DNA of 48,316 bases from an uncultured Verrucomicrobiota bacterium. GTDB taxonomy: Bacteria > Verrucomicrobiota > Verrucomicrobiia > Palsa-1439. Below the pieces are notes generated by a model. It worked only from the letters and a program-made list of their open reading frames with translations. It was not told the DNA's origin and did no database searches. The position numbers were made by a program, and so were the translations under genes. Numbering within the stretch: position 1 is the stretch's first letter; each line of letters starts with the position of its first letter. Location: positions 1 to 48,316 of the forward strand of contig CAIKAP010000141.1 of assembly GCA_903825435.1 (NCBI GenBank), written 5' to 3'. Positions 1,812 through 20,597 of the stretch are shown piece after piece.

Positions 1812-3158
1812 TCATGAAGAAACGATTTCGTGGCCTAGTTTCCGGAGGTGTTGAAGTTTGTAGAGAAGGGCGCGGCGGCTGATGCCGAGCGCTTTTGCCG
1901 TCTCAGTACGGTTGAACTTGTGCTCGCGCAAGGAACGGAGGATGGCGTCGCGCTCGATGTCACCGAGTTGTTCCGAGGGCGAGGGCGCGGCCGGCGACGG
2001 CCCGGCGATGACGGCTCGGACGCGGGTCGGGAGATGTTCCGGGAGAATCATCTCGCTGCCGGACAACAGGACGGCGCGTTCCATCGCGTTGCGCAGTTCG
2101 CGGATGTTGCCGGGCCAGGAGTAGCGCTGCAAACATTCAGCGACGGTTTCGGAGAATCGCGCACGGCCTTTGGAGAACTCGGTGATGAACTGGCCGGCGA
2201 GCGGGAGGATGTCTTCGGGCCGCTCGCGCAACGGCGGGACGTGAAGCTCGACGACGTTGAGCCGGTAAAACAAATCCTCGCGGAACCGGCCGAGCTTCAC
2301 CTGTTCTTCGAGGTTGCGGTTACTGGCGGCGAGCAGGCGGGCGTCGCTGCGGATCTCGCGGTTGGAGCCGATGCGGTGAAACCCGCCGTCGTGGGTCACG
2401 CGAAGCAGCTTGGCCTGCAACGCGGGGGACATCTCGGCGATTTCGTCGAGAAGAATCGTGCCGCCGTTGGCCTCCTCGAACCGGCCGATCCTCTGGGCGT
2501 GCGCGCCGGTGAAGGCGCCTTTTTCGTGGCCGAACAGTTCGCTTTCCAACAATGTTTCGGGAATCGCGGCGCAGTTGACTTTCACGAGCGGGCCGCGGGC
2601 GCGTGGGCTCCAGGCGTGGATGACATCGGCGAGAATCTCCTTGCCGGCGCCGCTTTCGCCGGTGATGAGGATCCGGGAGTCGGAAGGCGCGATGAGGGCG
2701 GCGTCGCGAAACACGGCCTGCATGAGGGGACTGTTGGCGACGACGGAGGCGGGGAGCGCGGTGTTGTTGGCGAGTTGCAGCGTCGGAGTGGCGGCAAGCC
2801 CGGTGGCTTGGCGGACGGAGTCGAGGAGTTCGTCGAGGTCAATCGGTTTGGCGAGGTAATTGACGGCGCCGTCGCGCATCGCCTCGACGGCATCACGGAT
2901 GTCGGCGTAGGCGGTGACGAGCAGGACGGGCAACGTGGCGTGTTCCTTTCGCGCCAGCCGGAGGGTTTCCAGCCCGGTCAATCCCGGCATCCGCACGTCG
3001 GAGATCATCATCGCGATGTCCCCGGCTCGGAGGATTTCGAGGGCGCGTTGGCCGGAGTCGGCGACGATGGTCTGAAAACCCTGGCCGCGCAGAAAGGAGT
3101 CGAGCAGGCTGCGCTGGCCCGGGTCGTCGTCCACGATGAGGATGCGCGTTGTCTTCAA
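1812..3158 (-). CDS. NtrC-family sigma-54-dependent response regulator
   Basis: The 448-residue cytoplasmic transcription activator has three parts. The receiver domain (about 5-118) has the acidic pair at 10-12, phospho-acceptor Asp54 (MISDVRMPG) and Lys104. The AAA+ sigma-54 interaction domain (about 140-365) has Walker A GESGAGKE (167-174), an intact GAFTGA loop (214-219) and Walker B ILLDE. A Fis-type helix-turn-helix (about 400-445) carries NRTETAKALGISRRALLYKL. All catalytic motifs are intact. Its start overlaps the kinase stop by 4 nt (ATGA), so the two are translationally coupled at the end of the secretion operon. A sigma-54 promoter with an upstream palindrome occurs at the operon head, about 18 kb away, and is a natural candidate target (inference). 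Confidence 0.95.
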   Translation of the reverse strand: MKTTRILIVDDDPGQRSLLDSFLRGQGFQTIVADSGQRALEILRAGDIAMMISDVRMPGLTGLETLRLARKEHATLPVLLVTAYADIRDAVEAMRDGAVNYLAKPIDLDELLDSVRQATGLAATPTLQLANNTALPASVVANSPLMQAVFRDAALIAPSDSRILITGESGAGKEILADVIHAWSPRARGPLVKVNCAAIPETLLESELFGHEKGAFTGAHAQRIGRFEEANGGTILLDEIAEMSPALQAKLLRVTHDGGFHRIGSNREIRSDARLLAASNRNLEEQVKLGRFREDLFYRLNVVELHVPPLRERPEDILPLAGQFITEFSKGRARFSETVAECLQRYSWPGNIRELRNAMERAVLLSGSEMILPEHLPTRVRAVIAGPSPAAPSPSEQLGDIERDAILRSLREHKFNRTETAKALGISRRALLYKLQHLRKLGHEIVSS

Positions 3159-4654
3159 GTCTTACCGGCGAGTTTGAGGTGCGTGAGGCGGAAGATAGCA
3201 CCTTTTGGCTCGTTGGGAAGACATTCTATCACCCAGCCGTGGAGGAGAGTGATTTGTTGGACGACGGCGAGGCCGAGGCCGGTGCCGCGTTGGTGGGTGG
3301 TGACGTAGGGCTTGAAAATCTCCTGCCGGCGTTCGGGCGGGACGCCGGGGCCGGTGTCGCGGATTTCGAGGAAGGCTTCGTTGGGATTTGTTTCGCCGGC
3401 GAGGATGCGGATGGAGCCGCCGGTTTCTAGAGCTTGGATGGCGTTCATCAACAGGTTGAAGAGCGTCTGACGGAGGAGTTGTTCGTCGGCCTCGATGGTG
3501 AGCGGGTCACCGTCGAGTGTGAACGCGATTTGTTTTTCCTCGATGTCGTAGTTGAGGGCGCGCTGGACTTCTTGGATGGCGGCGTGGAGGGCGACGGAGG
3601 TGCGGCGGATTTCGCGGGGCCGGGAGTAGTTGATGAACTCGTTGAGTTGGGCGGTGACTTTGTCCACTTCGTCAACGATGGCGCGGGATTTGTCGCGCAG
3701 CTCGGTGGTGGCGTCGGGCTGTTTGGAGATCATTTGGGCGTGGCCGCGGATGATGTTGAGTGGGTTGCGGGTCTCGTGGGCGAGGCCGGCGGCGGCGAGG
3801 TTCATTTCCTTGAGATGCGTCGTCACTTCGCTGGCTCGGACGAGGCGGAGTTGGAGGTCGGAGGATTTGCCGAGGTTGCGCCAGGCGAGGCCGGTGCCGG
3901 CGGCGGCGAGGGCGGCGAACAGGAGAATGAGAAGCCGTCGCCAGAGGTCCTGCTCGGCGGCGGCGCGGACGGCGTTGGTGGACATGACGATGAGGAAACT
4001 GTGGACACTTTGTTTCTGGAGCGCGGCCTTGTATTCCGGCTCGCTCATCCAGCGGGGCCGGGCGAAACGCGGTCGGCCACCGACGCGCGGGACATCGCCG
4101 GTGATGGTGAGGGTGGAGGTGAAGTTGGTGGGCAATTCGGACGGGCGCGGTGGCGACAACAGCAAGGATGGCGTCGCGTTGGTGGCGGAGGGGCCGTACA
4201 TTTCGGCGCGCGGCAGGACGACGGGCGGGTTGAAGCCCTCGATGTCGCGGGTGACGTTGGTGCCGAGGTCAACGAGGTTCATCAGGGTGACGGTCTGGTC
4301 TTCCCAAAATTCCGCGGGACCGGCGATGGATTTCGGGTGGAAATCGACGAGCGTGCCGGCGGAGGCGACGACGTCGCCGGCGGGGTTGAAGAGGGCGATG
4401 CCGTTGAGGTCGCCGGGTTTGACGAGGTCGCCGAGGGCGGATTCGAGGCGTTCCTTGGAGATGATGTTGCCGAAGCGACGCTGGGAGCGGAGGACGATGC
4501 CGAGGGTCGTGGAGATGTCCTTGGCGCGGTTGGTCAATTCTTCGCGCGCGGTCCGTCGCACGCCGATGTGCTCGGCGGCCTGCCAGCCGAGCACAAGCAG
4601 CCATGCGACGGCCAGCAGTCCGTAGATCAACGCGATGCGGCGGTTCAATTCCAT
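3155..4654 (-). CDS. Membrane sensor histidine kinase
   Basis: The 499-residue kinase is an NtrB/AtoS-like partner of the following regulator. It has one N-terminal membrane helix (about 7-25), a roughly 210-residue extracytoplasmic sensor region and a second helix (about 240-258). These precede HisKA with His293 (GLAHETRNPLN) and HATPase_c with N-box NLLMNAIQA (about 400-408), G1 DTGPGVP (433-439) and G2 GTGLGLA (457-463). The sensor region has no recognised domain and is proline-rich near 150-200. It starts 5 nt after the secretin C-part and overlaps the regulator by 4 nt, so it belongs to the secretion operon. The ligand is unknown. Confidence 0.95.
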   Translation of the reverse strand: MELNRRIALIYGLLAVAWLLVLGWQAAEHIGVRRTAREELTNRAKDISTTLGIVLRSQRRFGNIISKERLESALGDLVKPGDLNGIALFNPAGDVVASAGTLVDFHPKSIAGPAEFWEDQTVTLMNLVDLGTNVTRDIEGFNPPVVLPRAEMYGPSATNATPSLLLSPPRPSELPTNFTSTLTITGDVPRVGGRPRFARPRWMSEPEYKAALQKQSVHSFLIVMSTNAVRAAAEQDLWRRLLILLFAALAAAGTGLAWRNLGKSSDLQLRLVRASEVTTHLKEMNLAAAGLAHETRNPLNIIRGHAQMISKQPDATTELRDKSRAIVDEVDKVTAQLNEFINYSRPREIRRTSVALHAAIQEVQRALNYDIEEKQIAFTLDGDPLTIEADEQLLRQTLFNLLMNAIQALETGGSIRILAGETNPNEAFLEIRDTGPGVPPERRQEIFKPYVTTHQRGTGLGLAVVQQITLLHGWVIECLPNEPKGAIFRLTHLKLAGKT

Positions 4655-4659
4655 GATGG

Positions 4660-5883
4660 TCAGCGGCGTTTGTTGTCCTTGTCGGTGGACTTCTGCGGAA
4701 TCTTTTCGAGGAAACGATCGAGTTCCTTCTCGGAATTCGTCTCCGGCGTCAATGTTGTGTCGCGTTCCTTGGTGGTCACGGCGGCCATCTGTGTCGGCGC
4801 GTTGACAATGTGCGGCGTGAGGAAGATGAGCAACTCGGACTTGGCGTCGCTCCTGACTTTCCGCTTGAAGAGATTCCCTAGGAACGGAATGTCGCCAAGG
4901 AAAGGAATCTTGCTTTCGCTGAAGCTCTTGTCATTTTGCATCAGACCGCCGATGACGACAGTTTGCCCGTCGGGTGTCACGATCACCGTGTCCGCTTGGC
5001 GGATGTCGATCACCGGCGCGCTCACACCGGTAGAAATAGGCACCGTTATCGTGGGGTCAATCGACGATGTCTGCGGCGAGACCATCATCTGCACCAAGCC
5101 GTCGGGGGTGATGTACGGGGTCACTTTCAGTATGATTCCTACTTCAGTATAAGTCACCGAATTGATGGGGTTACCGGTTAGCCCGTTGTAGGAGACACTG
5201 GTAATCAACGGCACGGACTGTCCGACAACGATAGAGGCCGGTTGGCTATCACGCGCCATGATGGACGGCCGCGACAACAATGTCGCCTTGCCCGCCTGTG
5301 CGATAGCCCGTAGCGTGGCTTGGAAATCTTTACCGAGGATCTGATACAACCCCGCACCCGGTCCGGCTGCGTAGGGCGCAATCTGTTGGAAACTGGAGAT
5401 TGGCTGTCCTAACATGTTCGCGTTGGAGCCGACAATCGAGCTGAGGCTCGACAAGCCGAAGCCGTTGGCGAATGAGCCAGCCGTTGTCGAGTTGCCGACC
5501 TTGCCGCCCCAACCGCCCTCGATGCCGATGTCGGAGGCGTTGTTGTGCGTGACTTCGAGGAACACCACCTTGATGAGGACCTGCGGTCGTGGACGGTCCA
5601 AGTTGCTGATGACTTGGCTAATCTGTCGCATCGTGTCCTCGTCGGCGATGACGGTGATGTTGCGCGTGTCCGGGTCAATCGAAAGGGTAGCGCTGCCCAC
5701 GCCGCCGTTCGGGTTGTACTGCTGCTGGCTACTGCTCGATGTGCCACCACTACGGGATGCGCCGCCAGAAGCGCCTCCACCACCCGCCCCGCTGCCACCA
5801 CCAAACCGTTGCTGCGCGTGGACGGCCACCGCGAAGCCGAGGGCGCCCGCCAAGATCGCCGTAAGTTTTAAATGACTTTTCAT
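4660..5883 (-). CDS. gspD: Secretin pore domain protein (C-terminal half of GspD)
   Basis: The 407-residue outer-membrane secretin protein lacks the usual periplasmic N0-N2 domains. It begins with its own signal peptide (LTAILAGALGFAVAVHA, cleavage near 23), then a Gly/Ser-rich linker (about 26-60). The second half of an N3-type ring domain follows (SATLSIDPDTRNITVIADED to SNLDRPRPQV, about 64-101). The secretin barrel region then contains LLSRPSIMARD, GQSVPLIT, GGLMQNDKS, IPFLGDIPFLGNLF and LLIFLTPHIV. Its start has a strong AGGAG site directly after the TAA of the upstream gene, so it is translated on its own. The missing N-domains are in the adjacent 435-aa protein, which ends inside N3. 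Confidence 0.93.
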   Translation of the reverse strand: MKSHLKLTAILAGALGFAVAVHAQQRFGGGSGAGGGGASGGASRSGGTSSSSQQQYNPNGGVGSATLSIDPDTRNITVIADEDTMRQISQVISNLDRPRPQVLIKVVFLEVTHNNASDIGIEGGWGGKVGNSTTAGSFANGFGLSSLSSIVGSNANMLGQPISSFQQIAPYAAGPGAGLYQILGKDFQATLRAIAQAGKATLLSRPSIMARDSQPASIVVGQSVPLITSVSYNGLTGNPINSVTYTEVGIILKVTPYITPDGLVQMMVSPQTSSIDPTITVPISTGVSAPVIDIRQADTVIVTPDGQTVVIGGLMQNDKSFSESKIPFLGDIPFLGNLFKRKVRSDAKSELLIFLTPHIVNAPTQMAAVTTKERDTTLTPETNSEKELDRFLEKIPQKSTDKDNKRR

Positions 5884-5895
5884 GTTATATCTCCT

Positions 5896-7203
5896 TTAGA
5901 ACGACGGGCCTGAGACACCAGAGCGTCCGCTACTGCTCCCCAGCCCGGTGCCGAAGGAGGTGCTGGAAGAGGACGAGTTTTGGTTTTGTTGAATACGGTT
6001 CATCAATGGGCTGTTCTGCGACGAACCGCGCGAGCTACTGCGACCCGATGTGCTGTTTTGGAACATGTCCTGCAACACCGGCAACACCTCCTGCGGATCG
6101 GCGTTGTTTAGGTGGAACACTTGTACTGAGGTTTCCTTGCTCGAATGATGATCGAGCTGATCGATCATCCCTGAAATCTGCTCCATCAAATCCTTCGTTG
6201 TCGTCACCACGACCGCCGATGTGCGTGCGTCAGCTACTGCGATCACTTGTTGGCGTTTTTTGACTCGCTGTTTCTGTGACGAAGCCGTCGCAGCGCCTCC
6301 ACCCGGCGCGCCTCCCATCATCGCCGCCATGAACGAGCCAATGCGCCCACCTCCACCCGGTACGCCTCCACCTAAGCGGATAGGCGCTTGTGTTGTTGAG
6401 CTGCTCTGGTCGGGGAAGAGACTCATCAACAGTGATGCCATCTCGACCGGGTCGGCATGCTTCAGTGTGAACACCCTTAACTGCGTCTCATCCTCGGCGC
6501 TCGAATCAATCGCCTTGATGATCTCCACCATGTGACGGATGTTCGCCTGCGTATCGGTCAACGCGATCGAGTTGCCCGCCTCATTCGCGACAATCGTTGC
6601 CTGCGGCGAAACCATCGGCGAAAGATCTTTCGCCAGTTGCGCCGCCTCGACGAACCGGACCGGAATGATCTGCGTCACAATCTCGTCGTTGTTCGGAATC
6701 ACCGCCGGGTCGCCGCCGGTTTTCACCGGGATGTTGGCGCGCAACGCCTCGGTCTTGCTGAGGATCGTCAGTTTACGACCGTTGCGGATCGCCGCGTAGC
6801 CGTTCTTGTTGAGCATCGAGTTCAAGAGGTCCACCGCTTCCTCCTTCGTCACCGGCAACGCGCTGTACACATCCACCGTACCTTGCACCGGTGTCTGCGT
6901 CTCGATAATGAACCCGGCCGCGTCGCTCATATAATTCAGCACCAGCCCGATGGGCGCGTTGCGGAAATTCAACCGCAGCTCGCCCTCCTTCAACGGCGGT
7001 AATGGCGGTTCTGGCGCCGCATTTGTCGCCACCGCAGTTGCCGTCTCTGGCACCGGCGGCGCTGGCAACGCCGCTGATGTTGCTGGCGCGTTGGTGTCTG
7101 TTGCCACAGCCGCTATTGGTAGCGGCTGCTGCTGTGCGATGGCTGACAACAGCACAGCCAGCGCGCAACACGTCAATAATACGGATAGGGTTGGATTCTT
7201 CAT
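5896..7203 (-). CDS. gspD: Secretin periplasmic N-domain protein (N-terminal half of GspD)
   Basis: The 435-residue exported protein has a signal peptide (LSVLLTCCALAVLLSAIA), then a Pro/Ala/Thr-rich linker to about 70. Next come N0 (about 75-150, LRLNFRNAPIGLVLNYMSD...), N1 (about 175-235) and N2 (about 242-352, with a long Gly/Met-rich loop). The opening strand and helix of N3 follow (VQVFHLNNADPQEVLPVLQD, about 360-380). It then runs into a Ser/Gly/Asn-rich tail and stops, with no secretin barrel. The protein starts with a 4-nt overlap with the GspC/PilP-like gene and is followed after 12 nt by the barrel half. Together they make a full GspD cut in the N3 loop. A sequencing frameshift is unlikely because the second part has a signal peptide and ribosome site. 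Confidence 0.92.
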   Translation of the reverse strand: MKNPTLSVLLTCCALAVLLSAIAQQQPLPIAAVATDTNAPATSAALPAPPVPETATAVATNAAPEPPLPPLKEGELRLNFRNAPIGLVLNYMSDAAGFIIETQTPVQGTVDVYSALPVTKEEAVDLLNSMLNKNGYAAIRNGRKLTILSKTEALRANIPVKTGGDPAVIPNNDEIVTQIIPVRFVEAAQLAKDLSPMVSPQATIVANEAGNSIALTDTQANIRHMVEIIKAIDSSAEDETQLRVFTLKHADPVEMASLLMSLFPDQSSSTTQAPIRLGGGVPGGGGRIGSFMAAMMGGAPGGGAATASSQKQRVKKRQQVIAVADARTSAVVVTTTKDLMEQISGMIDQLDHHSSKETSVQVFHLNNADPQEVLPVLQDMFQNSTSGRSSSRGSSQNSPLMNRIQQNQNSSSSSTSFGTGLGSSSGRSGVSGPSF

Positions 7204-13042: not shown

Positions 13043-14290
13043 TTATTTGATGTAATCCTGCAATGTGAAAATCGGCAGCAACATTCCGATGAAAATCGTG
13101 CCGATGAAACTGGCGATCAAAAACAACATTAGCGGCTCCGCGAGCGCCACCGCTGTCTTCATCTGGCGGTCAAGATCGCCCTCGGTAACGGCGGCGATGC
13201 GCACCAGCTCCGCATCGAGCCGTCCGCTCTCCTCGGCGACCGAAATCATTTCCAGCACCGACCCCGGAAACAAACCCCGGCACTCCGCCAGGCTTTGCCC
13301 GAGCCGTCCGCCTTCCTGCACCCGCTCGATCGAAGTCGAGACGGCGTCCACGAGAATCTGATTGCCGACCGATTTGCGGGCGACGTTGAGCGCCTGGACC
13401 AGCGGCACGCCTGCGCCGAGCAACGTGCCCAGCATCCGGCAGAACCGCGCCATCGCAAACTGCGCCACGAGCGAGCCGACGACCGGCGCCCGCAACATCA
13501 GCCCTTCCCACACGCGCTTGCCTTTCTCCGAGGCGAACCAGCTCCGCACCATCAAGACGGCGACGAACAACCCGACCAGCACAAACAAACCGTACGACCG
13601 CAATACATCGCTTATGCCGATGATGATTTGCGTGATCAACGGCAACGAACCGCCGAAGCCGGAAAAAACTTTCTGGAATCGCGGAATAAAAAACACCAGC
13701 AGAATCGTCAATACCACCAGCGCCAGCACCAGCAGGATGCACGGGTACAGCATCGCCGTCATCACTTTCGAGCGCAATTCCTTCTCGCGCGCCTGGAAAT
13801 CGGCGATCTGCGCCAGCACCACGTCGAGGAACCCGCCCGTCTCGCCCGCCTGGACCATCGCCGTATAAACCCGCGGAAACGTGTCCGGGTACTGCGTCAT
13901 TGCGTCGGCCAACGCCATCCCGTCGATCACCTTGTCATGGATTTCTTTCCACTTCGCCGACGCCGCCGGCGTGGCAGCCTCGCGGTACAAAATCACCAGC
14001 GCCCGGCTCAACGGCACCCCCGCCGCCAGCAAACTCGACAGCAACCGCGTAAAATTCTCCAGCGCCTTCGCCGTCACCTTGTTCGACTTCATCTTGAAAT
14101 CGAACCCGGCAGCGCGCGCCGTCCCTTGCGCACCGTTACCGGATGCCTTACCGGCTTGCTCCGCGAGACTGACCGGCCGCAACCCACGCGTCTCCATCTG
14201 CCGAAACGCATCCGGCCGGTTCCCGGCATCGATCTGGCCTTCCGCCACCGAGCCGTCCGCCGCAATCGCTTTGTAGGTGAATGTAGGCAT
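13043..14290 (-). CDS. gspF: GspF inner-membrane platform protein
   Basis: The 415-residue protein has a complete T2SS/T4P F fold. Two T2SSF domains (about 75-200 and 275-400) contain ARLLSSLLAAGVPLSRAL-type and RMLGTLLGAGVPLVQALNVA helices. Membrane segments are AMLYPCILLVLALVVLTILLVFF, GLFVLVGLFVAVLMV and LMLFLIASFIGTIFIGMLL. The N-terminal MPTFTYKAIAADGSVAEGQI segment is normal for the family, but its first 48-50 bp occur three more times upstream (14962-15009, 17319-17368 inside the chimera, 18209-18258). The gene is thus intact but separated from gspE by about 4.6 kb of inserted DNA, so its expression probably depends on readthrough or an internal promoter (inference). Confidence 0.95.
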   Translation of the reverse strand: MPTFTYKAIAADGSVAEGQIDAGNRPDAFRQMETRGLRPVSLAEQAGKASGNGAQGTARAAGFDFKMKSNKVTAKALENFTRLLSSLLAAGVPLSRALVILYREAATPAASAKWKEIHDKVIDGMALADAMTQYPDTFPRVYTAMVQAGETGGFLDVVLAQIADFQAREKELRSKVMTAMLYPCILLVLALVVLTILLVFFIPRFQKVFSGFGGSLPLITQIIIGISDVLRSYGLFVLVGLFVAVLMVRSWFASEKGKRVWEGLMLRAPVVGSLVAQFAMARFCRMLGTLLGAGVPLVQALNVARKSVGNQILVDAVSTSIERVQEGGRLGQSLAECRGLFPGSVLEMISVAEESGRLDAELVRIAAVTEGDLDRQMKTAVALAEPLMLFLIASFIGTIFIGMLLPIFTLQDYIK

Positions 14291-14377
14291 TATGAGGAAA
14301 ATCCGTTACCGGGTCTGCACGACCATAGCGCGCCACAACTTGACAAACGCTGTGCCGCAAAGTTAAGTTCGCACGTC

Positions 14378-14611
14378 ATGAACGCACTGCTGTCTCGCAT
14401 CACGGTTGACTCGGCGATTTGCCACGGCAAACCGGCCATTCGCCACCTGCGGTATCCGGTGGAAAGCATCCTCGAATACCTCGCGGCGGGCGACAGCTTT
14501 GAGGATCTCTTGGGCGAGTTTCCTGATTTGGAACGCGATGATCTGCGGGCCTGTCTGGAGTTTGCGGCCCAATCGCTCAAGCAGAAGAGCCTGCACTTGG
14601 CGCTGACATGA
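14378..14611 (+). CDS. DUF433 antitoxin-like protein (module A)
   Basis: The 77-residue protein runs antisense to the secretion operon. It starts MNALLSRITVDSAICHGKPA, followed by YPVESILEYLAAGDSFEDLLGEFPDLERDDLRACLEFA. This is the compact DUF433 fold (ICHGKP.I....PV..IL..LA.G.S...LL..FP.L...D..A.L.FA), a VapB-like winged-helix antitoxin family. Its stop overlaps the toxin start (ATGA). It lies in the 3' part of a DNA block wedged between two gspF starts. By eye it shares about a third of residues with module B, so the two modules are not recent copies. Confidence 0.85.
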   Translation: MNALLSRITVDSAICHGKPAIRHLRYPVESILEYLAAGDSFEDLLGEFPDLERDDLRACLEFAAQSLKQKSLHLALT

Positions 14612-14961
14612 AATTTCTCGTGGATGCACACCTGCCGCCGGGTTTGTGCGCCGCGCTCCAAGCCGCCGGGCATGACGCCGTCCACACGCGGCAGTTGCCG
14701 GCCCACAATGCCACGTCCGACGACACGATCAACACGCTGTCCATGGCGGAGCAACGCGTGGTGATCACCAAGGATACCGACTTCTACTACTCCCATTTGC
14801 AGCGGGGCGAGCCGTGGAAACTGTTGCTGGTTCGCACCGGCAACATCCGCGCTCGCGACCTGACCACGCTGGTCGAACGGCACCTGCCGGCCATCATTGC
14901 CGCCTTGCAGCATAATTCCCTCGTCGAACTCGACCGGCAGTCCGTGCAGGTCGTTACCTGA
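14608..14961 (+). CDS. DUF5615 PIN-like toxin (module A)
   Basis: The 117-residue protein begins MKFLVDAHLPPGLCAALQAA, followed by GHDAVHTRQLP, DDTINTLSMAEQRVVITKDTDFYYSHLQRGEPWKLLLVRTGNI. These match the DUF5615/Mut7-C PIN-like family: Asp6, Asp near the DDTI segment, and the TKDTDF acidic cluster as likely metal ligands. Such proteins are usually the toxin half of a DUF433 pair and probable ribonucleases (family knowledge). It is translationally coupled to its antitoxin. Its TGA is followed with no gap by a 48-bp copy of the gspF start in the other orientation. Confidence 0.87.
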   Translation: MKFLVDAHLPPGLCAALQAAGHDAVHTRQLPAHNATSDDTINTLSMAEQRVVITKDTDFYYSHLQRGEPWKLLLVRTGNIRARDLTTLVERHLPAIIAALQHNSLVELDRQSVQVVT

Positions 14962-15009
14962 CGCCACCGAGCCGTCCGCCGCAATCGCTTTGTAGGTGAA
15001 GGTGGGCAT
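14962..15009 (-). repeat. gspF 5'-end copy 2 (48 bp)
   Basis: This is a copy of the first 48 bp of gspF, encoding MPTFTYKAIAADGSVA. It differs from the real gene at two synonymous sites (CCC and ACC at codons 2 and 3). Homology begins at the ATG, with no shared upstream sequence, and ends at the toxin A stop codon. The frame stays open for 239 codons through the antisense strand of module A and ends in a TAATG overlap with the true gspF start. Confidence 0.9.
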
Positions 15010-15113
15010 GGTCAGGATAACCCAGGGTTGAAACTGGCCGATACCGAGCGTCGAACGGCCCGCGCGCGGCCGTTGCTGTTCTGTGGGTGTTGGTTCAACT
15101 GCATTTCTTCTGC

Positions 15114-17057
15114 CTATTTGAGGAAAAACTCTTTCAGCGGGCGATAGCCGAGCTTCGCCAGCAGTGCATCCCAGTTGGCGGGCAGTTTGATTTCGATCGT
15201 GACGTTATTGCCGCCGGGCATGATTTGCACCTTGTTCCGGTCCGCGTCCCCGGTGAGCAGAATCGCAGTCGTGCCGGGCTTCATCACGGGGATGGTCTGG
15301 ATTTTCTCCAGCCCTTGAACCTTGGGGAACCACGGGGGTGGGGCCGTCAACTCTCCGCCTTCGTCGCGGGTGATCTTGCGCGCGTGTTGCTCGACCGTGT
15401 AGCGGGTCGGGTCGAACGCGCTGCCGGCGCTGGCCCAGTAGTTGGCGAAGGCGCGTTCATAGACCGGTCGCCGGGCGGTAGCGATCAGGGCTTGTTCGAG
15501 CTTTTCCTTGGTGGGATACCCGCGGGCCAGGTCGCGGGCGACGTACTCGGTAATCAGCATGGTCCGGGGCGTGAGCCGCGGGCCGCTGCCGGTCGCAAAC
15601 TGCCCTTTCTCCACCGCATCCCAAGCCATAAGCTGCATGATTTTTTCGGGGTTGGACGTTGCCGGGGTGAGATTATTGCCCCACAACAGCGCGGAAGCTC
15701 CAGTGAGCGTGCTCTGGTTCAGATCAAACCCTTGTTGCACGTGGTGCGGCTTCCAGCCAATCTTGAGACAAGCCTGTTCATCCTCCGCCAAGCACCACGG
15801 CATGAGATAACCAAAGCTCCCCATCCGGTCTTGTTTGATGTAGTACCCACCGAGATTCATCATCGCCAGACTTATAAAGCGGCCAAGCACCGCGTTGCGT
15901 GGCTCATTGATCTGTCCTTGTTGGGAGTCAATCCCCAGTTGTCGGGCCACCGGTCCGTTCACCCAACAGAAAGGCGTCCACGCATGGGTGCTGGCCAAGG
16001 TGCGCCGATAATTGCCATTCGCCAGAGTTTTGGTATAGGCGATCAGCAGCGGCATGAACTCCGGCGGGCATCCCGCCATCACGCCATTCACGGCCACATG
16101 CCAGACCAAGGTCTTCCGATAGGCGATTGGCAGCACGGCGACAACCTGATCCCAAGGCTGGTCGGTATATTTCAGAAACTCCGCCACCCGTTCTACCGTC
16201 GGGGGAATAATCGGCAGCCCGTCGGACCAACGCTGTTCGATGAAAAACCGATTCACCCCGTCAACCGTGCCCACGAACACACGGTCCTTGGGGTCTTCGA
16301 CGCCGGCTTTGCGACGTGCAGCGATTTCCGCCTCCGTGATCGGTTTCGTCAGGGCCGCGACGATCTGCGGCCAAAGCACTTCTCTGGTATTCTGGATCAA
16401 CTCCTCTCGTGTGTGGGCTGCAAATGCGCCGGGGTACGTAGCGGCGCGCGGCGCGGGCACGCCGTTGTTGACGGCTGTAGAATACACCTGCTTCACAAAA
16501 TTCGGCGCCGCGATGGTGACGGCGGGAATGCCCACGTACTCCGCCGCGATACTCGAACCCGTTTCCTTGGGAGTACAGAGTCCACAACCACCGTTGCCGG
16601 AGATCACGGCTTGCACACCCAGGGCTTTGAGCTTCTTCTGGAAATCGTCCTTCGCCTGTCTAATAACTCCGGGGCCAGGATACGATCCAGCCGACCCTAT
16701 TTCATCCAGCAAGATCACCTTTGCAGTCGGATAGTTCTGCAAGATCAGCCTCTTAATTTCAGGATGTGTTACGCGGGCCATAAAACTTCCGCCCACAACC
16801 GCAATCGTCTTTCCTGCCAGCGTGTCCAAGCGCGGTGCCTGCGCGATCCGCGGAATCGTTTGCTTACCAACCGGGGCCACGACCGCGTATTTCCCTGGAG
16901 GGAGCGGCGCTCCCGGAACCAGACACGCGTCATCGCACTCGTATGACATCGCGCTTCCTATTCCGCTGGGGGCGGCTGGTTTCGTGGCCGATTCTGCCGG
17001 CGCCATTCCCGCGCACACGTTCAAGACTGCACAAACTCCTATCATCCAAATCTTCAT
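15114..17057 (-). CDS. Exported UGSC-like family protein, long form
   Basis: The 647-residue protein has a signal peptide (MIGVCAVLNVCAGMAPAES). An N-terminal UGSC-like domain (about 75-250) includes GKTIAVVGGSFMARVTHPEI and the redox-like segment AVISGNGGCGLCTPKETGSS followed by IAAEYVGIPAVTI. In UGSC (seleno)proteins this position carries U/C-G-S-C; here it is CGLC. A long C-terminal part starts FIEQRWSDGLPIIPPTVERV, seen in long members of that family. The biochemical role is not established. It sits between the gspF/gspE chimera (74 nt upstream) and gspF copy 2, replacing the original short gspE-gspF junction. Nothing else is visible in 15010-15113. The family call is by motif memory. Confidence 0.6.
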   Translation of the reverse strand: MKIWMIGVCAVLNVCAGMAPAESATKPAAPSGIGSAMSYECDDACLVPGAPLPPGKYAVVAPVGKQTIPRIAQAPRLDTLAGKTIAVVGGSFMARVTHPEIKRLILQNYPTAKVILLDEIGSAGSYPGPGVIRQAKDDFQKKLKALGVQAVISGNGGCGLCTPKETGSSIAAEYVGIPAVTIAAPNFVKQVYSTAVNNGVPAPRAATYPGAFAAHTREELIQNTREVLWPQIVAALTKPITEAEIAARRKAGVEDPKDRVFVGTVDGVNRFFIEQRWSDGLPIIPPTVERVAEFLKYTDQPWDQVVAVLPIAYRKTLVWHVAVNGVMAGCPPEFMPLLIAYTKTLANGNYRRTLASTHAWTPFCWVNGPVARQLGIDSQQGQINEPRNAVLGRFISLAMMNLGGYYIKQDRMGSFGYLMPWCLAEDEQACLKIGWKPHHVQQGFDLNQSTLTGASALLWGNNLTPATSNPEKIMQLMAWDAVEKGQFATGSGPRLTPRTMLITEYVARDLARGYPTKEKLEQALIATARRPVYERAFANYWASAGSAFDPTRYTVEQHARKITRDEGGELTAPPPWFPKVQGLEKIQTIPVMKPGTTAILLTGDADRNKVQIMPGGNNVTIEIKLPANWDALLAKLGYRPLKEFFLK

Positions 17058-17131
17058 GTTTCTCCTTATAATTTGTTCAACGTTTTTTTCCAGCAGCTAT
17101 TGGGATCACATCTTGTCATTCAACAACTCCT

Positions 17132-17368
17132 CTAACTCGCCTTCGCCTCCGCGGCCGGGGCGGTTGGTTTGGCGCTGGTGGCTACTTCCTTGGCGGTGGT
17201 GACACTCAACACTTCTTCGACCGTCGTGATGCCTTGGCGGACGAGGTGCCAGCCGTCTTCGGCCAGCGTCTCCATCTGCCGAAACGCATCCGGCCGGTTC
17301 CCGGCATCGATCTGGCCTTCCGCCACCGAGCCGTCCGCTCCGATTGCTTTGTAAGTGAAGGTGGGCAT
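17132..17368 (-). CDS. Chimeric small ORF: GspF head fused to GspE tail
   Basis: The 78-residue ORF is GspF residues 1-34 (MPTFTYKAIGADGSVAEGQI...FRQMET) joined in frame to the last 44 residues of GspE (LAEDGWHLVRQGITTVEEVL...EAKAS). The junction sits in a 4-bp match, GCGT (17266-17269). This is the expected novel joint of a tandem duplication spanning the gspE tail to the gspF head. Compared with real gspE, the tail has eight synonymous changes and one replacement (His for Arg). The head has five synonymous and one replacement (Gly for Ala), all in the first ten codons. That pattern suggests protein-level constraint after duplication. Function is unknown; it could bind GspE or GspF partners (inference). 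Confidence 0.65.
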   Translation of the reverse strand: MPTFTYKAIGADGSVAEGQIDAGNRPDAFRQMETLAEDGWHLVRQGITTVEEVLSVTTAKEVATSAKPTAPAAEAKAS

Positions 17369-17376
17369 TGTCAGTT

Positions 17377-17427
17377 AAATCCGAAACTCGAAATCCGAAA
17401 TCCGAGACAAATCCGAAATCCGAATGA
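17377..17427. repeat. AAATCCGA-type short tandem repeat
   Basis: This is an array of degenerate AAATCCGA/AAACTCGA units, read on the minus strand as (T)CGGATTT repeats that would translate as FGFRISDFGF-like text. Such tracts are common in intergenic DNA of Verrucomicrobia and Planctomycetes. It lies immediately upstream of the chimeric ORF start. Confidence 0.7.
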
Positions 17428-17443
17428 CCAAAACGCCCGTTGT

Positions 17444-17541
17444 GCGCCGGTCTCCGACCGCGCACTCAGGTTTGACCGAAGGTCTCCCGGCACAACTGGA
17501 GACCTGACGGTCGGCAAAACGGCGCGGTCGGAGACCGGCGC
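17444..17541. repeat. Nested inverted-repeat element with perfect 20-bp termini
   Basis: GCGCCGGTCTCCGACCGCGC (17444-17463) is an exact inverted copy of 17522-17541. A second inverted pair, AGGTCTCC/GGAGACCT (17480-17487 and 17498-17505), lies inside. The 98-bp element could form a long two-part hairpin and resembles a MITE or REPIN. No transposase is nearby. It occupies the gap between module B and the repeat tract. Confidence 0.8.
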
Positions 17542-17610
17542 CGAACTGGCAGCCTCACCGTTGATAACACGTCCTTGAGTTAGTCGTTCGATTCCGGTAT
17601 CTTCAGTTGC

Positions 17611-17838
17611 ATGAACGAGCGCATTGAAATCACGCCCCGCGTCTGTGGCGGACAACCCGTCATCAAAGGCACACGCATTTCGGTGGCCGCCCTCCTGGAA
17701 CAACTCGCGGCCGGCGAATCGTGGGATTCGCTCCTGCACGGTTACCCGGAGCTGACCCGCGCCGACATTCAAGCGGTGCTGGACTACGCCCGCCAAGCCA
17801 TCCTCCACACCGAATTCAGCGTCCTCGAACCGGTCTGA
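17611..17838 (+). CDS. DUF433 antitoxin-like protein (module B)
   Basis: The 75-residue DUF433 protein begins MNERIEITPRVCGGQPVIKG, then TRISVAALLEQLAAGESWDSLLHGYPELTRADIQAVLDYA. The CGG.PVIKGTRI core is the family signature, clearer here than in module A. It is expected to bind DNA and neutralise the adjacent PIN-like toxin. It ends 6 nt before the toxin start and runs opposite to the secretion operon. Confidence 0.9.
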   Translation: MNERIEITPRVCGGQPVIKGTRISVAALLEQLAAGESWDSLLHGYPELTRADIQAVLDYARQAILHTEFSVLEPV

Positions 17839-17844
17839 GCCGTC

Positions 17845-18207
17845 GTGCGCCTTTATCTCGACCAAATGTTGCGGGCGGAACTCGCCGACCTGTTGCGCGC
17901 CCACGGCCATGATGTCGTCCGCGCCGTGGAAGTGGGCCAAGACCGAGCCGATGACGCACTGATTCTCGAACGCGCCGTGCACGACCACCGCGTGCTCATC
18001 ACCTTGGACGAGCATTTTGGTGACTGGGCCGTGCTGCCGTTGTCCGAGCACAACGGCGTGATCCGCGTCAAGGCGCACCCGCCCACCGTGGACAACGTCG
18101 CCGCGCTGCTGCTGCCGTTGCTGGCGGGCCGCTCCGAGGCGGACTTCCAAAACCGGCTGGTGATCGTCTCGCCGCGCCGGGTGCGCTGGATTCGCACCGC
18201 CGACTAA
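17845..18207 (+). CDS. DUF5615 PIN-like toxin (module B)
   Basis: The 120-residue protein uses a GTG start (MRLYLDQMLRAELADLLRAH). It continues with GHDVVRAVEVGQDRADDALILERAVHDHRVLITLDEHFGDWAVLPL and GVIRVKAHP. The Asp6, RADD and TLDEHFGDW acidic positions fit the DUF5615 PIN-like metal site. It is a probable ribonuclease toxin of the module B pair (family knowledge). It is clearly diverged from the module A toxin. Its TAA is separated by one base from the 50-bp gspF-start copy at 18209-18258. Confidence 0.88.
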   Translation: MRLYLDQMLRAELADLLRAHGHDVVRAVEVGQDRADDALILERAVHDHRVLITLDEHFGDWAVLPLSEHNGVIRVKAHPPTVDNVAALLLPLLAGRSEADFQNRLVIVSPRRVRWIRTAD

Positions 18208-18208
18208 C

Positions 18209-18258
18209 TCCGCCACCGAGCCGTCCGCCGCAATCGCTTTGTAGGTGAATGTGGGCAT
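18209..18258 (-). repeat. gspF 5'-end copy 1 (50 bp)
   Basis: This is a copy of the first 50 bp of gspF, encoding MPTFTYKAIAADGSVAE. It has a single synonymous difference (CCC for CCT at codon 2). Homology starts at the ATG and stops one base from the toxin B stop codon. Its frame stays open for 295 codons, antisense to module B, and ends two bases before the ATG of the chimeric gspF/gspE ORF. The neighbouring 18259-18344 shows no gene. Confidence 0.9.
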
Positions 18259-18344
18259 GAGGAGTTAACGTTGAACATGAGCGGCAGACCACGGCTTACC
18301 GGGGGGTGACAACTCGATGGAAGGAGTTAAGTTCAGATTAGCAC

Positions 18345-18863
18345 TCACGCGGGACAAACCTCGTTGATGTAGTACTTACCAATTTCGGCTACGAACTCTC
18401 CCAGGTGTCCATGCGTTATCGTGACTTCAAAGTTCTTGTGGCCTCTTGGAGTGGTATTCCAAAAGCGATATTTAGATTGCTCAACAAGCACCTCGAAATT
18501 TGCATGTGCGATAGCGTTGCGAAGCAAGCGCAGAAACTCGTCGGTTGAGACTTCGCCCGTAGATGACAGGGAGAAATAACTACGCGTCTTGAATGCAAAC
18601 TTGGTCTTCGTTCCTATTGGTTCCCACATCTCTTTCGGAACTACTAGCAGTCCGTAGAGAAGTGAAATTAGTAAACCTTGGTTCTTGAGGTTGAATTCAA
18701 CGCTTTGCAGGTGCTGGGCCTTCGTGAACTCAAGCATGAAGGCACTGATTGTCATATTCGGATCAGAAGCAAGGCTGTCAGAGAGCGCAAACAGAAGTTG
18801 ACCGTTATACCAACACCATTTTGGCACTTCATTACCGGTGGAATTGGATTTGCGTTTAGTCAT
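18345..18863 (-). CDS. HEPN-like protein of unknown function
   Basis: The 172-residue protein is recognisable only by EFLRLLRNAIAHANFEVLVE. This contains the R-x4-H pattern (RNAIAH) typical of HEPN ribonuclease or RNA-binding domains, within helical flanks. No other domain is seen. Its DNA is visibly more AT-rich than the secretion genes around it, which suggests recent transfer. It starts 12 nt after the gspE stop, within sequence that is also conserved after the chimera's gspE tail; similarity between the two loci ends just past this ATG. Opposite-strand toxin module B lies beyond it. HEPN assignment is tentative. Confidence 0.55.
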   Translation of the reverse strand: MTKRKSNSTGNEVPKWCWYNGQLLFALSDSLASDPNMTISAFMLEFTKAQHLQSVEFNLKNQGLLISLLYGLLVVPKEMWEPIGTKTKFAFKTRSYFSLSSTGEVSTDEFLRLLRNAIAHANFEVLVEQSKYRFWNTTPRGHKNFEVTITHGHLGEFVAEIGKYYINEVCPA

Positions 18864-18875
18864 TCCACAATTCCT

Positions 18876-20597
18876 CTAGCTCGCCTTCGCCTCCGCGGCC
18901 GGTGCGGTTGGTTTGGCGCTGGTGGCGACTTCCTTGGCGGTGGTGACGCTCAAGACTTCCTCGACGGTGGTGATGCCTTGGCGGACGAGCCGCCAGCCGT
19001 CTTCGGCCAGCGTGCTCATGCCGGCGCGGCGGGCGGCGTCGCGGAGTTGGTCGGTCGAGGTGTTTTTCAAAATCAGTTCGCGGATGGTGGCGTCGCTGTC
19101 CATCCACTCGAAGATGGCGTGCCGGCCGTGGAAGCCGGTGTTGCGGCATTCGCGGCAGCCGACGGATTTGTAGAGCGTCGTTTCCGCCGGGATGCCGATT
19201 TTGAGTTTGAAGGCCTCGGCGGTGGTGGAGTGGTCGGGTTGTTTGCAGTGCGGACAGAGGACGCGGACGAGGCGCTGGGCGAGCACCGCTTCGAGCGAGG
19301 AGGCGACGAGGTATGGTTCGACGCCCATGTCCACGAGCCGGGTCAGGGCGCCGGGGGCGTCGTTGGTGTGGAGCGTGGAGAAGACGAGGTGGCCGGTCAG
19401 CGAGGCTTGGACGGCGATCTGGGCGGTTTCCTGGTCGCGGATTTCGCCGATGAGCACGACGTCGGGATCGTGGCGCAGGATTGAGCGCAAGCCGCGGGCA
19501 AACGTCAGCCCGGCTTTCTCGGAGACCTGGATTTGGTTGACGCCCTTGAGCTGGTACTCGACGGGGTCTTCAATGGTGATGATTTTGCGGACGGCGTCGT
19601 TGATGGTGTTGAGCGCGGTGTAGAGCGTGGAGGTTTTGCCGCTGCCGGTCGGACCGGTGACGAGGATGATGCCGTGCGGGAGCTGGAGGACGCGGTTGAA
19701 ACATTCGAGTTCGCGCGGGGCCATGTCGAGTTCGCTCATGCCGCGGAGCGTGGAATTCTGGCGCAGCAGACGCATGACGACCGCTTCGCCGTGCAACATC
19801 GGGATGACGGAGACGCGGATGTCCACTTCGGCGTCGGCGATGCGGATCTTGATGCGGCCGTCCTGCGGCAGGCGTTTCTCGGCGATGTTGAGGTGACTTA
19901 AAATTTTGACGCGCGAGACGATGGCCGGCTGGAACCGCTTGAGCTGGGCCGGGACGGAAGTCTCCTGCAAATTGCCGTCGATGCGGTACCGGATGCGGAA
20001 TTCGTCCTCGAACGGCTCCAAATGGATGTCGGAGGCGCGCAGTTCGATGGCGTCCTTCAAAACTTGGTTGACGAAGCGGATGATGGAGGCTTCGTCCTCG
20101 GCCATGTCGAGATCGGTTTCTTCCCGCCCTTCCTCAACGACTTGAATTCCTTTTTCCTCGTCAAGCGTGCCGATGGTATCCGCGCCGACGCCGAGGTGGC
20201 GTTTGATCTCGCGCTGCACCGCCTCGGTCGACGCGAGCACCGGCTTGAGGTTCAGTCCGGTCAGTGTTTTCAGAGCATCCAGCCCCTGCGTCGCAAACAA
20301 CCGGCTCGTGGCGATCTCGACGTGGCCGTTGACGCGTTTCAACGGCAGCAATTCCTCTTTCAGCAAAATTCTAGCGGGAAACAACGAAAGAAGCTGGCGA
20401 TCCGGCTCCAGATTTTCGAGCGTGGTGTAGCTCAGTCCATATTCATTCGCCAACCACTGCAACGCCGCCTCCTCGCTCGCCACGCCCGGCGTGGCCCGGC
20501 GCAGCACCTCCGCATCGGTCGCGGCCAGTTGCTTGCCCGCGACCATCCGGTCGAGCAGTTCGTTCAAAGCAGCTTCGGTAGAGACGGTGTTACTCAT
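18876..20597 (-). CDS. gspE: GspE/PulE secretion ATPase
   Basis: The 573-residue cytoplasmic ATPase powers pseudopilus assembly. The N-terminal MshEN-like region is about 20-145. The catalytic domain contains Walker A GPTGSGKT (315-322), the Asp box (IITIEDPVEYQL), Walker B VLIGEIRD (about 380-387) and the His box TGHLVFSTLHTNDA. A CxxC-x29-CxxC zinc motif has Cys448, 451, 481 and 484. The last 44 residues (from Leu530) are duplicated in the chimeric ORF at 17132-17368. It is the second gene after the sigma-54 promoter, with a REP-like element just upstream. The gene is intact. Confidence 0.95.
   Translation of the reverse strand: MSNTVSTEAALNELLDRMVAGKQLAATDAEVLRRATPGVASEEAALQWLANEYGLSYTTLENLEPDRQLLSLFPARILLKEELLPLKRVNGHVEIATSRLFATQGLDALKTLTGLNLKPVLASTEAVQREIKRHLGVGADTIGTLDEEKGIQVVEEGREETDLDMAEDEASIIRFVNQVLKDAIELRASDIHLEPFEDEFRIRYRIDGNLQETSVPAQLKRFQPAIVSRVKILSHLNIAEKRLPQDGRIKIRIADAEVDIRVSVIPMLHGEAVVMRLLRQNSTLRGMSELDMAPRELECFNRVLQLPHGIILVTGPTGSGKTSTLYTALNTINDAVRKIITIEDPVEYQLKGVNQIQVSEKAGLTFARGLRSILRHDPDVVLIGEIRDQETAQIAVQASLTGHLVFSTLHTNDAPGALTRLVDMGVEPYLVASSLEAVLAQRLVRVLCPHCKQPDHSTTAEAFKLKIGIPAETTLYKSVGCRECRNTGFHGRHAIFEWMDSDATIRELILKNTSTDQLRDAARRAGMSTLAEDGWRLVRQGITTVEEVLSVTTAKEVATSAKPTAPAAEAKAS

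Follow-up and report, generated by a model that had tools for sequence, protein, structure and literature searches.

It has long been asked how chromosomal toxin–antitoxin pairs can move without transposases, and the question is raised by a gspE–gspF junction in the stretch of DNA analysed here (the window, 48,316 nucleotides; contig 141 of genome G000), where copies of the start of gspF recur around two predicted pairs. Did this junction receive one insertion that was duplicated and then drifted, or were different cassettes placed into equivalent slots, as the first-pass annotation had proposed? We compared the junction with those of relatives, mostly Verrucomicrobia metagenome-assembled genomes (MAGs), and surveyed toxin–antitoxin loci across the Verrucomicrobiae.

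Read along the minus strand, the junction consists of gspE, a HEPN gene, gspF head d, pair B, gspF head b joined to a second gspE tail, a UGSC-family gene, head c, pair A and gspF. The intact gspE (18876..20597, minus strand; PF00437, 460 bits) encodes a type II secretion/type IV pilus ATPase and is followed directly by a HEPN pEK499_p136-like gene (18345..18863, minus strand; PF18736, 48.4 bits against a cut-off of 26.6). Head d (18211..18258, minus strand, ATG at 18258) corresponds to gspF codons 1-16 and is a target-type repeat that abuts the stop codon of toxin B. Pair B lies on the plus strand and consists of a DUF433 antitoxin (17611..17838; PF04255, 85.9 bits) and a DUF5615 toxin that is PIN-like and Mut7-C related (17845..18207; PF18480, 73.7 bits). 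Head b (17266..17368, minus strand, ATG at 17368; 103 nt) is followed by the second gspE tail with about 30 bp past its stop (17099..17269, minus strand; 89% identical to 18843-19013) and by the UGSC-family gene (15114..17057, minus strand; 647 aa; PF24696, 57.8 bits against a cut-off of 25). Head c (14962..15009, minus strand, ATG at 15009), also a target-type repeat, abuts the stop codon of toxin A, a plus-strand DUF5615 gene (14608..14961; PF18480, 89.4 bits) preceded by its DUF433 antitoxin (14378..14611, plus strand; PF04255, 74.1 bits, the Pfam match being computed on 14408-14611 and the start codon read from the sequence). The intact gspF (13043..14290, minus strand; PF00482, 188.7 bits) begins with the second repeat copy, head a. 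Both toxins match DUF5615 best and PIN_10 and Mut7-C more weakly. ORF positions, profile matches and the repeat comparison thus bear out the gene order and coordinates of the first-pass annotation, as well as its division of the cargo, with the HEPN gene and module B in one copy and the UGSC-like gene and module A in the other.

Heads c and d run from the gspF start to codon 16 and measure about 48-62 nt including some upstream sequence. Head b extends to codon 34, where it is joined to the gspE tail (stop at 17132) at a common ACG, and the two are in frame in a fused ORF (17368-17132) that reads MPTFTYKAIG...RQMET-LAEDGW. When the gspF heads were sought as a mobile repeat across the rest of the genome, none was found. 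The HEPN gene and the UGSC gene both lack flanking repeats of their own; the cargo contains no defence system according to PADLOC, and NCBIfam gave only sub-threshold UGSC/PrdB matches in it, with NF041046 below its cut-off for the UGSC gene. A 29-nt inverted repeat with GGTCGGAGACCGGCGC arms (17435-17463 and 17522-17550) lies between antitoxin B and head b. Intergenic GTCATTCGGATTTCGGATTT-type repeats adjoin the heads in both the window (17369-17430) and its congener (4983-5108 and 5704-6000 of locus L058), and may have a role in rearrangements.

The repeated host pieces are well preserved. Heads a and b form a repeat of 118 nt at 91% identity and the gspE tails one of 171 nt at 89%, both far beyond chance. 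The gspF heads had been described as nearly identical, which is so for a, c and d (1-2 differences over 48 nt) but not for head b, which differs from head a at 8 of the first 48 nt and at none of the next 55 (92% overall). Over 138 nt the gspE tail copies show 10 differences (93% DNA identity), falling in 8 synonymous codons and 1 non-synonymous codon, a bias that neutral drift would give with p = 4e-4. Because of this bias, the comparison suggests that the second tail diverged mostly while it was part of a functional gspE in a different strain. The two pairs had been called only distantly similar, and they share 25% protein identity in the toxin and 38% in the antitoxin. Pair B is therefore not a drifted copy of pair A, since the duplicated gspE and gspF pieces have kept 91-93% DNA identity. 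Simple drift after duplication was ruled out as a candidate by this gap in divergence between A/B and their flanks. Head d is closer to a and c than to b, so that any order of events proposed for the window is tentative.

A scan of 84,980 species yielded 80 gspF loci at which to make the comparison that the first-pass annotation had recommended, that of the junction in related genomes. At 78 of these gspE and gspF are neighbours, with a single gspF head, no toxin–antitoxin pair and a gap that is mostly below 250 bp. As for the other two, one contig (L111) is without gspE, and L058, from the one congener compared (genome G001), is occupied by pair A only: it reads gspE, gspF head (ATG at 5109), pair A, gspF (ATG at 6001). 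L058 matches the downstream unit of the window and is without the second copy, pair B, the HEPN gene and the UGSC gene, which have so far been observed only in the lineage of the window. At one of the 78, L056, the gap (1776 bp, 4250-6000) holds unrelated small ORFs and no DUF433 or DUF5615 match. Between the two species pair A is 86-89% identical in DNA as against 81-82% for gspE and gspF, as vertical descent would predict; because the congener carries the same head, pair A and gspF, pair A is ancestral at this junction in the genus.

At three places, two in the window (14290-15009 and 17371-18258) and one in L058 (5109-5999), the frame that starts in the dead head crosses the antisense strand of the pair without a stop codon and ends exactly where the next gspF begins. 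Of 90 pairs surveyed, only 6 have an antisense frame, aligned to the toxin codons, that is fully open. The open antisense frame may preserve translational coupling across the insert.

The arrangement at gspF is one case of a pattern that recurs in the class. In the Verrucomicrobiae, loci were tested for a direct repeat shared by the first 150 bp past the toxin stop codon and the sequence upstream of the antitoxin gene, with a score cut-off reached by 0.5% of random positions. Such repeats flank 22/92 DUF5615, 8/30 PemK/MazF, 4/28 VapC and 1/30 ParE loci, and none of the cold-shock (0/30) or acetyltransferase (0/30) control genes. Taken together, 35 of 180 toxin–antitoxin loci carry them, compared with 0 of 60 control genes (Fisher p = 1.7e-5) and 11 of 2338 random positions (p = 2e-32); the tested loci were the best-scoring members of each family and the random positions were drawn from gspF neighbourhoods, so these rates are estimates. 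The lower cut-off admits some repeats that consist of simple intergenic sequence; at a stricter cut-off of 60 the counts are 23/180, 0/60 and 6/2338. A repeat scan of 0.95 Mb that was blind to gene content returned 20 pairs, mostly simple intergenic repeats, and the few complex ones include L058 (DUF5615 pair), L077 (PIN_3 gene) and L084 (PIN pair). In the clear cases the repeats are about 50-203 bp long and 82-98% identical, and the unit between them (0.56-0.83 kb) is a bare two-gene operon. Around another DUF5615 pair in the congener (L384, contig 63) we noted longer direct repeats, one of 1.37 kb (83%) and another of 0.43 kb (84%). No flanking repeat was detected at about 80% of the toxin–antitoxin loci and ParE gave 1/30; either this is not the sole route, therefore, or the repeats decay.

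In many clear cases the repeat lies at the end of a long ORF, with one side retaining the whole gene. The repeated piece is a 3' end for thiC (L188), trpS (L145), pgm/pmm (L021, in the window's own genome), mgsA (mgsA/rarA; L167), a ROK kinase (L134), hsdS (L221), type ISP (L190) and AIR carboxylase (L332), and a 5' end for aldehyde dehydrogenase (L193), uvrB (L336) and gspF (the window and L058); at L165, L186 and L137 the repeats are outside long ORFs. Comparison with empty sites in relatives covers gspF, with its 78/80 single heads, and pgm, while the other targets are read as an intact gene plus a fragment only. Where related pairs occupy unrelated sites, the DNA that they have in common ends at the toxin stop codon (L190/L221 at 78%, L135/L138 at 87%, L157/L159 at 75%). 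Judged by this structure, the gspF heads resemble copies of the target made when toxin–antitoxin pairs inserted. Since ordinary genes of related bacteria show this layout at their ends too, the sequences suggest that toxin–antitoxin pairs spread by inserting at gene ends, which are duplicated in the process.

The pgm locus shows two different pairs in one slot. In the genome of the window (L381, contig 143) a DUF433–DUF5615 pair lies between two copies of the pgm 3' end, with the pgm end at 1443-1539, the toxin at 1557-1910 and the second copy at 2191-2287. In the congener, a DUF2281 antitoxin gene and a PemK/MazF toxin gene come after pgm, and behind them lies a shortened second copy of its end (L314, 3424-3471); in two members of another genus of the family (G003 and G008) there is one copy of the pgm end. 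The second pgm end of the congener is 39/42 (93%) identical to the pgm end of the window species and much less so to its own. Just past the duplicated pgm end of L381, a second pair, of PemK type, lies at 2518-3000, so that two pairs are stacked there too. Because the pgm slots of these two genomes hold different pairs, the view that the gspF site took up two cassettes has a parallel. For the toxin–antitoxin pairs, the proposal of different cassettes in equivalent slots is thus supported, both by this parallel and by the 25/38% of the pairs against the 92-93% of their flanks.

We therefore favour, at a probability of roughly 0.65, a reading in which the gspE–gspF junction serves as an insertion slot for toxin–antitoxin operons, with duplication on entry, a later doubling and lock-in by addiction. 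A bare DUF433–DUF5615 operon of about 0.6-0.8 kb, without a transposase, would have entered at gspF codon 16 and duplicated 50-60 bp of the gspF start, leaving a complete gspF downstream and a dead head upstream. Its presence here predates the split of the genus, because the congener has the same head, pair A and gspF. In the lineage of the window, the segment from the gspE tail to gspF codon 34 would then have been doubled, with the joint at the 3-bp ACG microhomology; a related strain probably supplied one piece, since the gspE tails differ almost only at synonymous positions. The outcome would be pair B in the upstream slot and pair A in the downstream slot, with HEPN and UGSC between gspE tail and head. 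Direct repeats should permit loss of an insert by recombination, and post-segregational killing would remove the losers, so that slots stay filled; selection would retain those cases in which the host gene survives. Recombination in the gene-end repeats that two pairs have in common could let one take the slot of the other, a route consistent with the outcome seen at pgm. The duplication itself may be made on insertion, by staggered breaks or template switching, or one copy may be imported by homologous integration. Against the slot reading stands the position of pair B at the same gspF codon as pair A: duplication of targets at random does not account for this, and the reading needs allelic replacement or gene conversion in addition. 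The assemblies underlying this reading are all MAGs.

A Campbell-type integration would account for the repeats differently, with a circle or fragment carrying the pair and the gene end of a related strain, so that the repeats are the resident and the imported copy. The 8 synonymous against 1 non-synonymous codons of the gspE tails speak for it, as does the excess at 9 other sites, where the repeat copies differ by 32 synonymous against 23 non-synonymous codons (14 synonymous expected under neutrality; p = 4e-7), and the second pgm end of the congener resembles that of the window species rather than its own. Changes that arise in the intact copy after insertion also favour synonymous sites, however, so import explains the excess only in part, and no circle or donor was found. 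The synonymous excess, to which evolution of the intact copy contributes as well, favours a share of import, and overall we consider the Campbell-type integration unlikely, though far from negligible. We would be equally tentative about a broader idea in which the ends of housekeeping genes act as attachment sites, such that a pair with a copied end, needing no recombinase of its own, would enter that gene in related species by homologous recombination, spare the gene, be locked in by killing and be open to exchange; at gspE–gspF the antisense frame would also have been kept open from the dead head to the true gspF start.

That these units are recognised in trans by a transposase or site-specific recombinase of their own is improbable. 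The homology of related pairs does end exactly at the toxin stop codon, as such an enzyme might produce, but inspection of the unit ends by eye revealed no shared terminal motif at the junctions, the repeats range from about 50 to more than 200 bp, toxin families without any relationship show the same behaviour, and the clear units leave no room for a recombinase besides the pair. The units hold two small genes, with no transposase, terminal inverted repeats or short target duplication of fixed length, and no integrase was seen between the repeats. Highly improbable, too, is a single-pair insertion followed by tandem duplication of gspE tail, pair and gspF head, with A and B as drifted descendants. 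It would explain why both units contain a gspE tail and a gspF head, arranged alike, and have a microhomology joint, but pair A is 84/93% identical to the pair of the congener and so evolves slowly, the pairs are far more diverged than their flanks, and only A is shared with the congener; this contradicts the first-pass annotation's own counter-hypothesis of ordinary divergent descendants. An assembly or binning artefact is the least credible account even among MAGs, because the junction of head, pair A and gspF is repeated in the independently assembled congener, the repeat copies differ from one another, and control genes of the same genomes are without the pattern.

If these duplications arise as proposed, the duplicated gene end at about one fifth of the loci is a readable scar, one that marks and orients insertions and reduces the mobile unit to the bare operon. 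Such a scar makes both mobility and the idea that addiction locks a pair in testable.

Known systems resemble these units in different respects. SXT in prfC is an integrative element that enters a gene end and supplies a replacement end. As in SXT-type elements, the host gene here stays intact and its end is duplicated or replaced; unlike them, the units have no integrase, are under 1 kb, and carry repeats that are far longer than an att core and differ from site to site. PIN-COG2442 (DUF433) systems of the VapBC family were predicted in PMC2701414, and in one example, vapBC10 of Synechocystis, the toxin stops growth and the antitoxin neutralises it (PMC3834315). The predicted pairs here likewise have a DUF433 gene directly followed by a PIN-like toxin gene, but their toxins match DUF5615 best; flanking target repeats are not described in these two papers, and the term 'direct repeat' is absent from PMC2701414. 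In the literature located on flanking direct repeats or target duplication, which covers subscription journals little, we found such descriptions for restriction–modification systems and none for toxin–antitoxin pairs. The former insert with long, variable target duplications on the order of 100 bp (PMC3874152), a phenomenon attributed to Nobusato et al. 2000 and Furuta et al. 2010 in PMC3874152, PMC1643837 and PMC3031569. The likeness is close: an addiction-type pair without its own recombinase, variable flanks of about 100 bp and empty sites in relatives. Compared with the cases given there, the cargo here is toxin–antitoxin, from four families (DUF433-DUF5615, VapC, PemK and ParE), the hosts are Verrucomicrobiae, the repeats that could be read lie at gene ends, and one slot holds two different pairs in two congeners.
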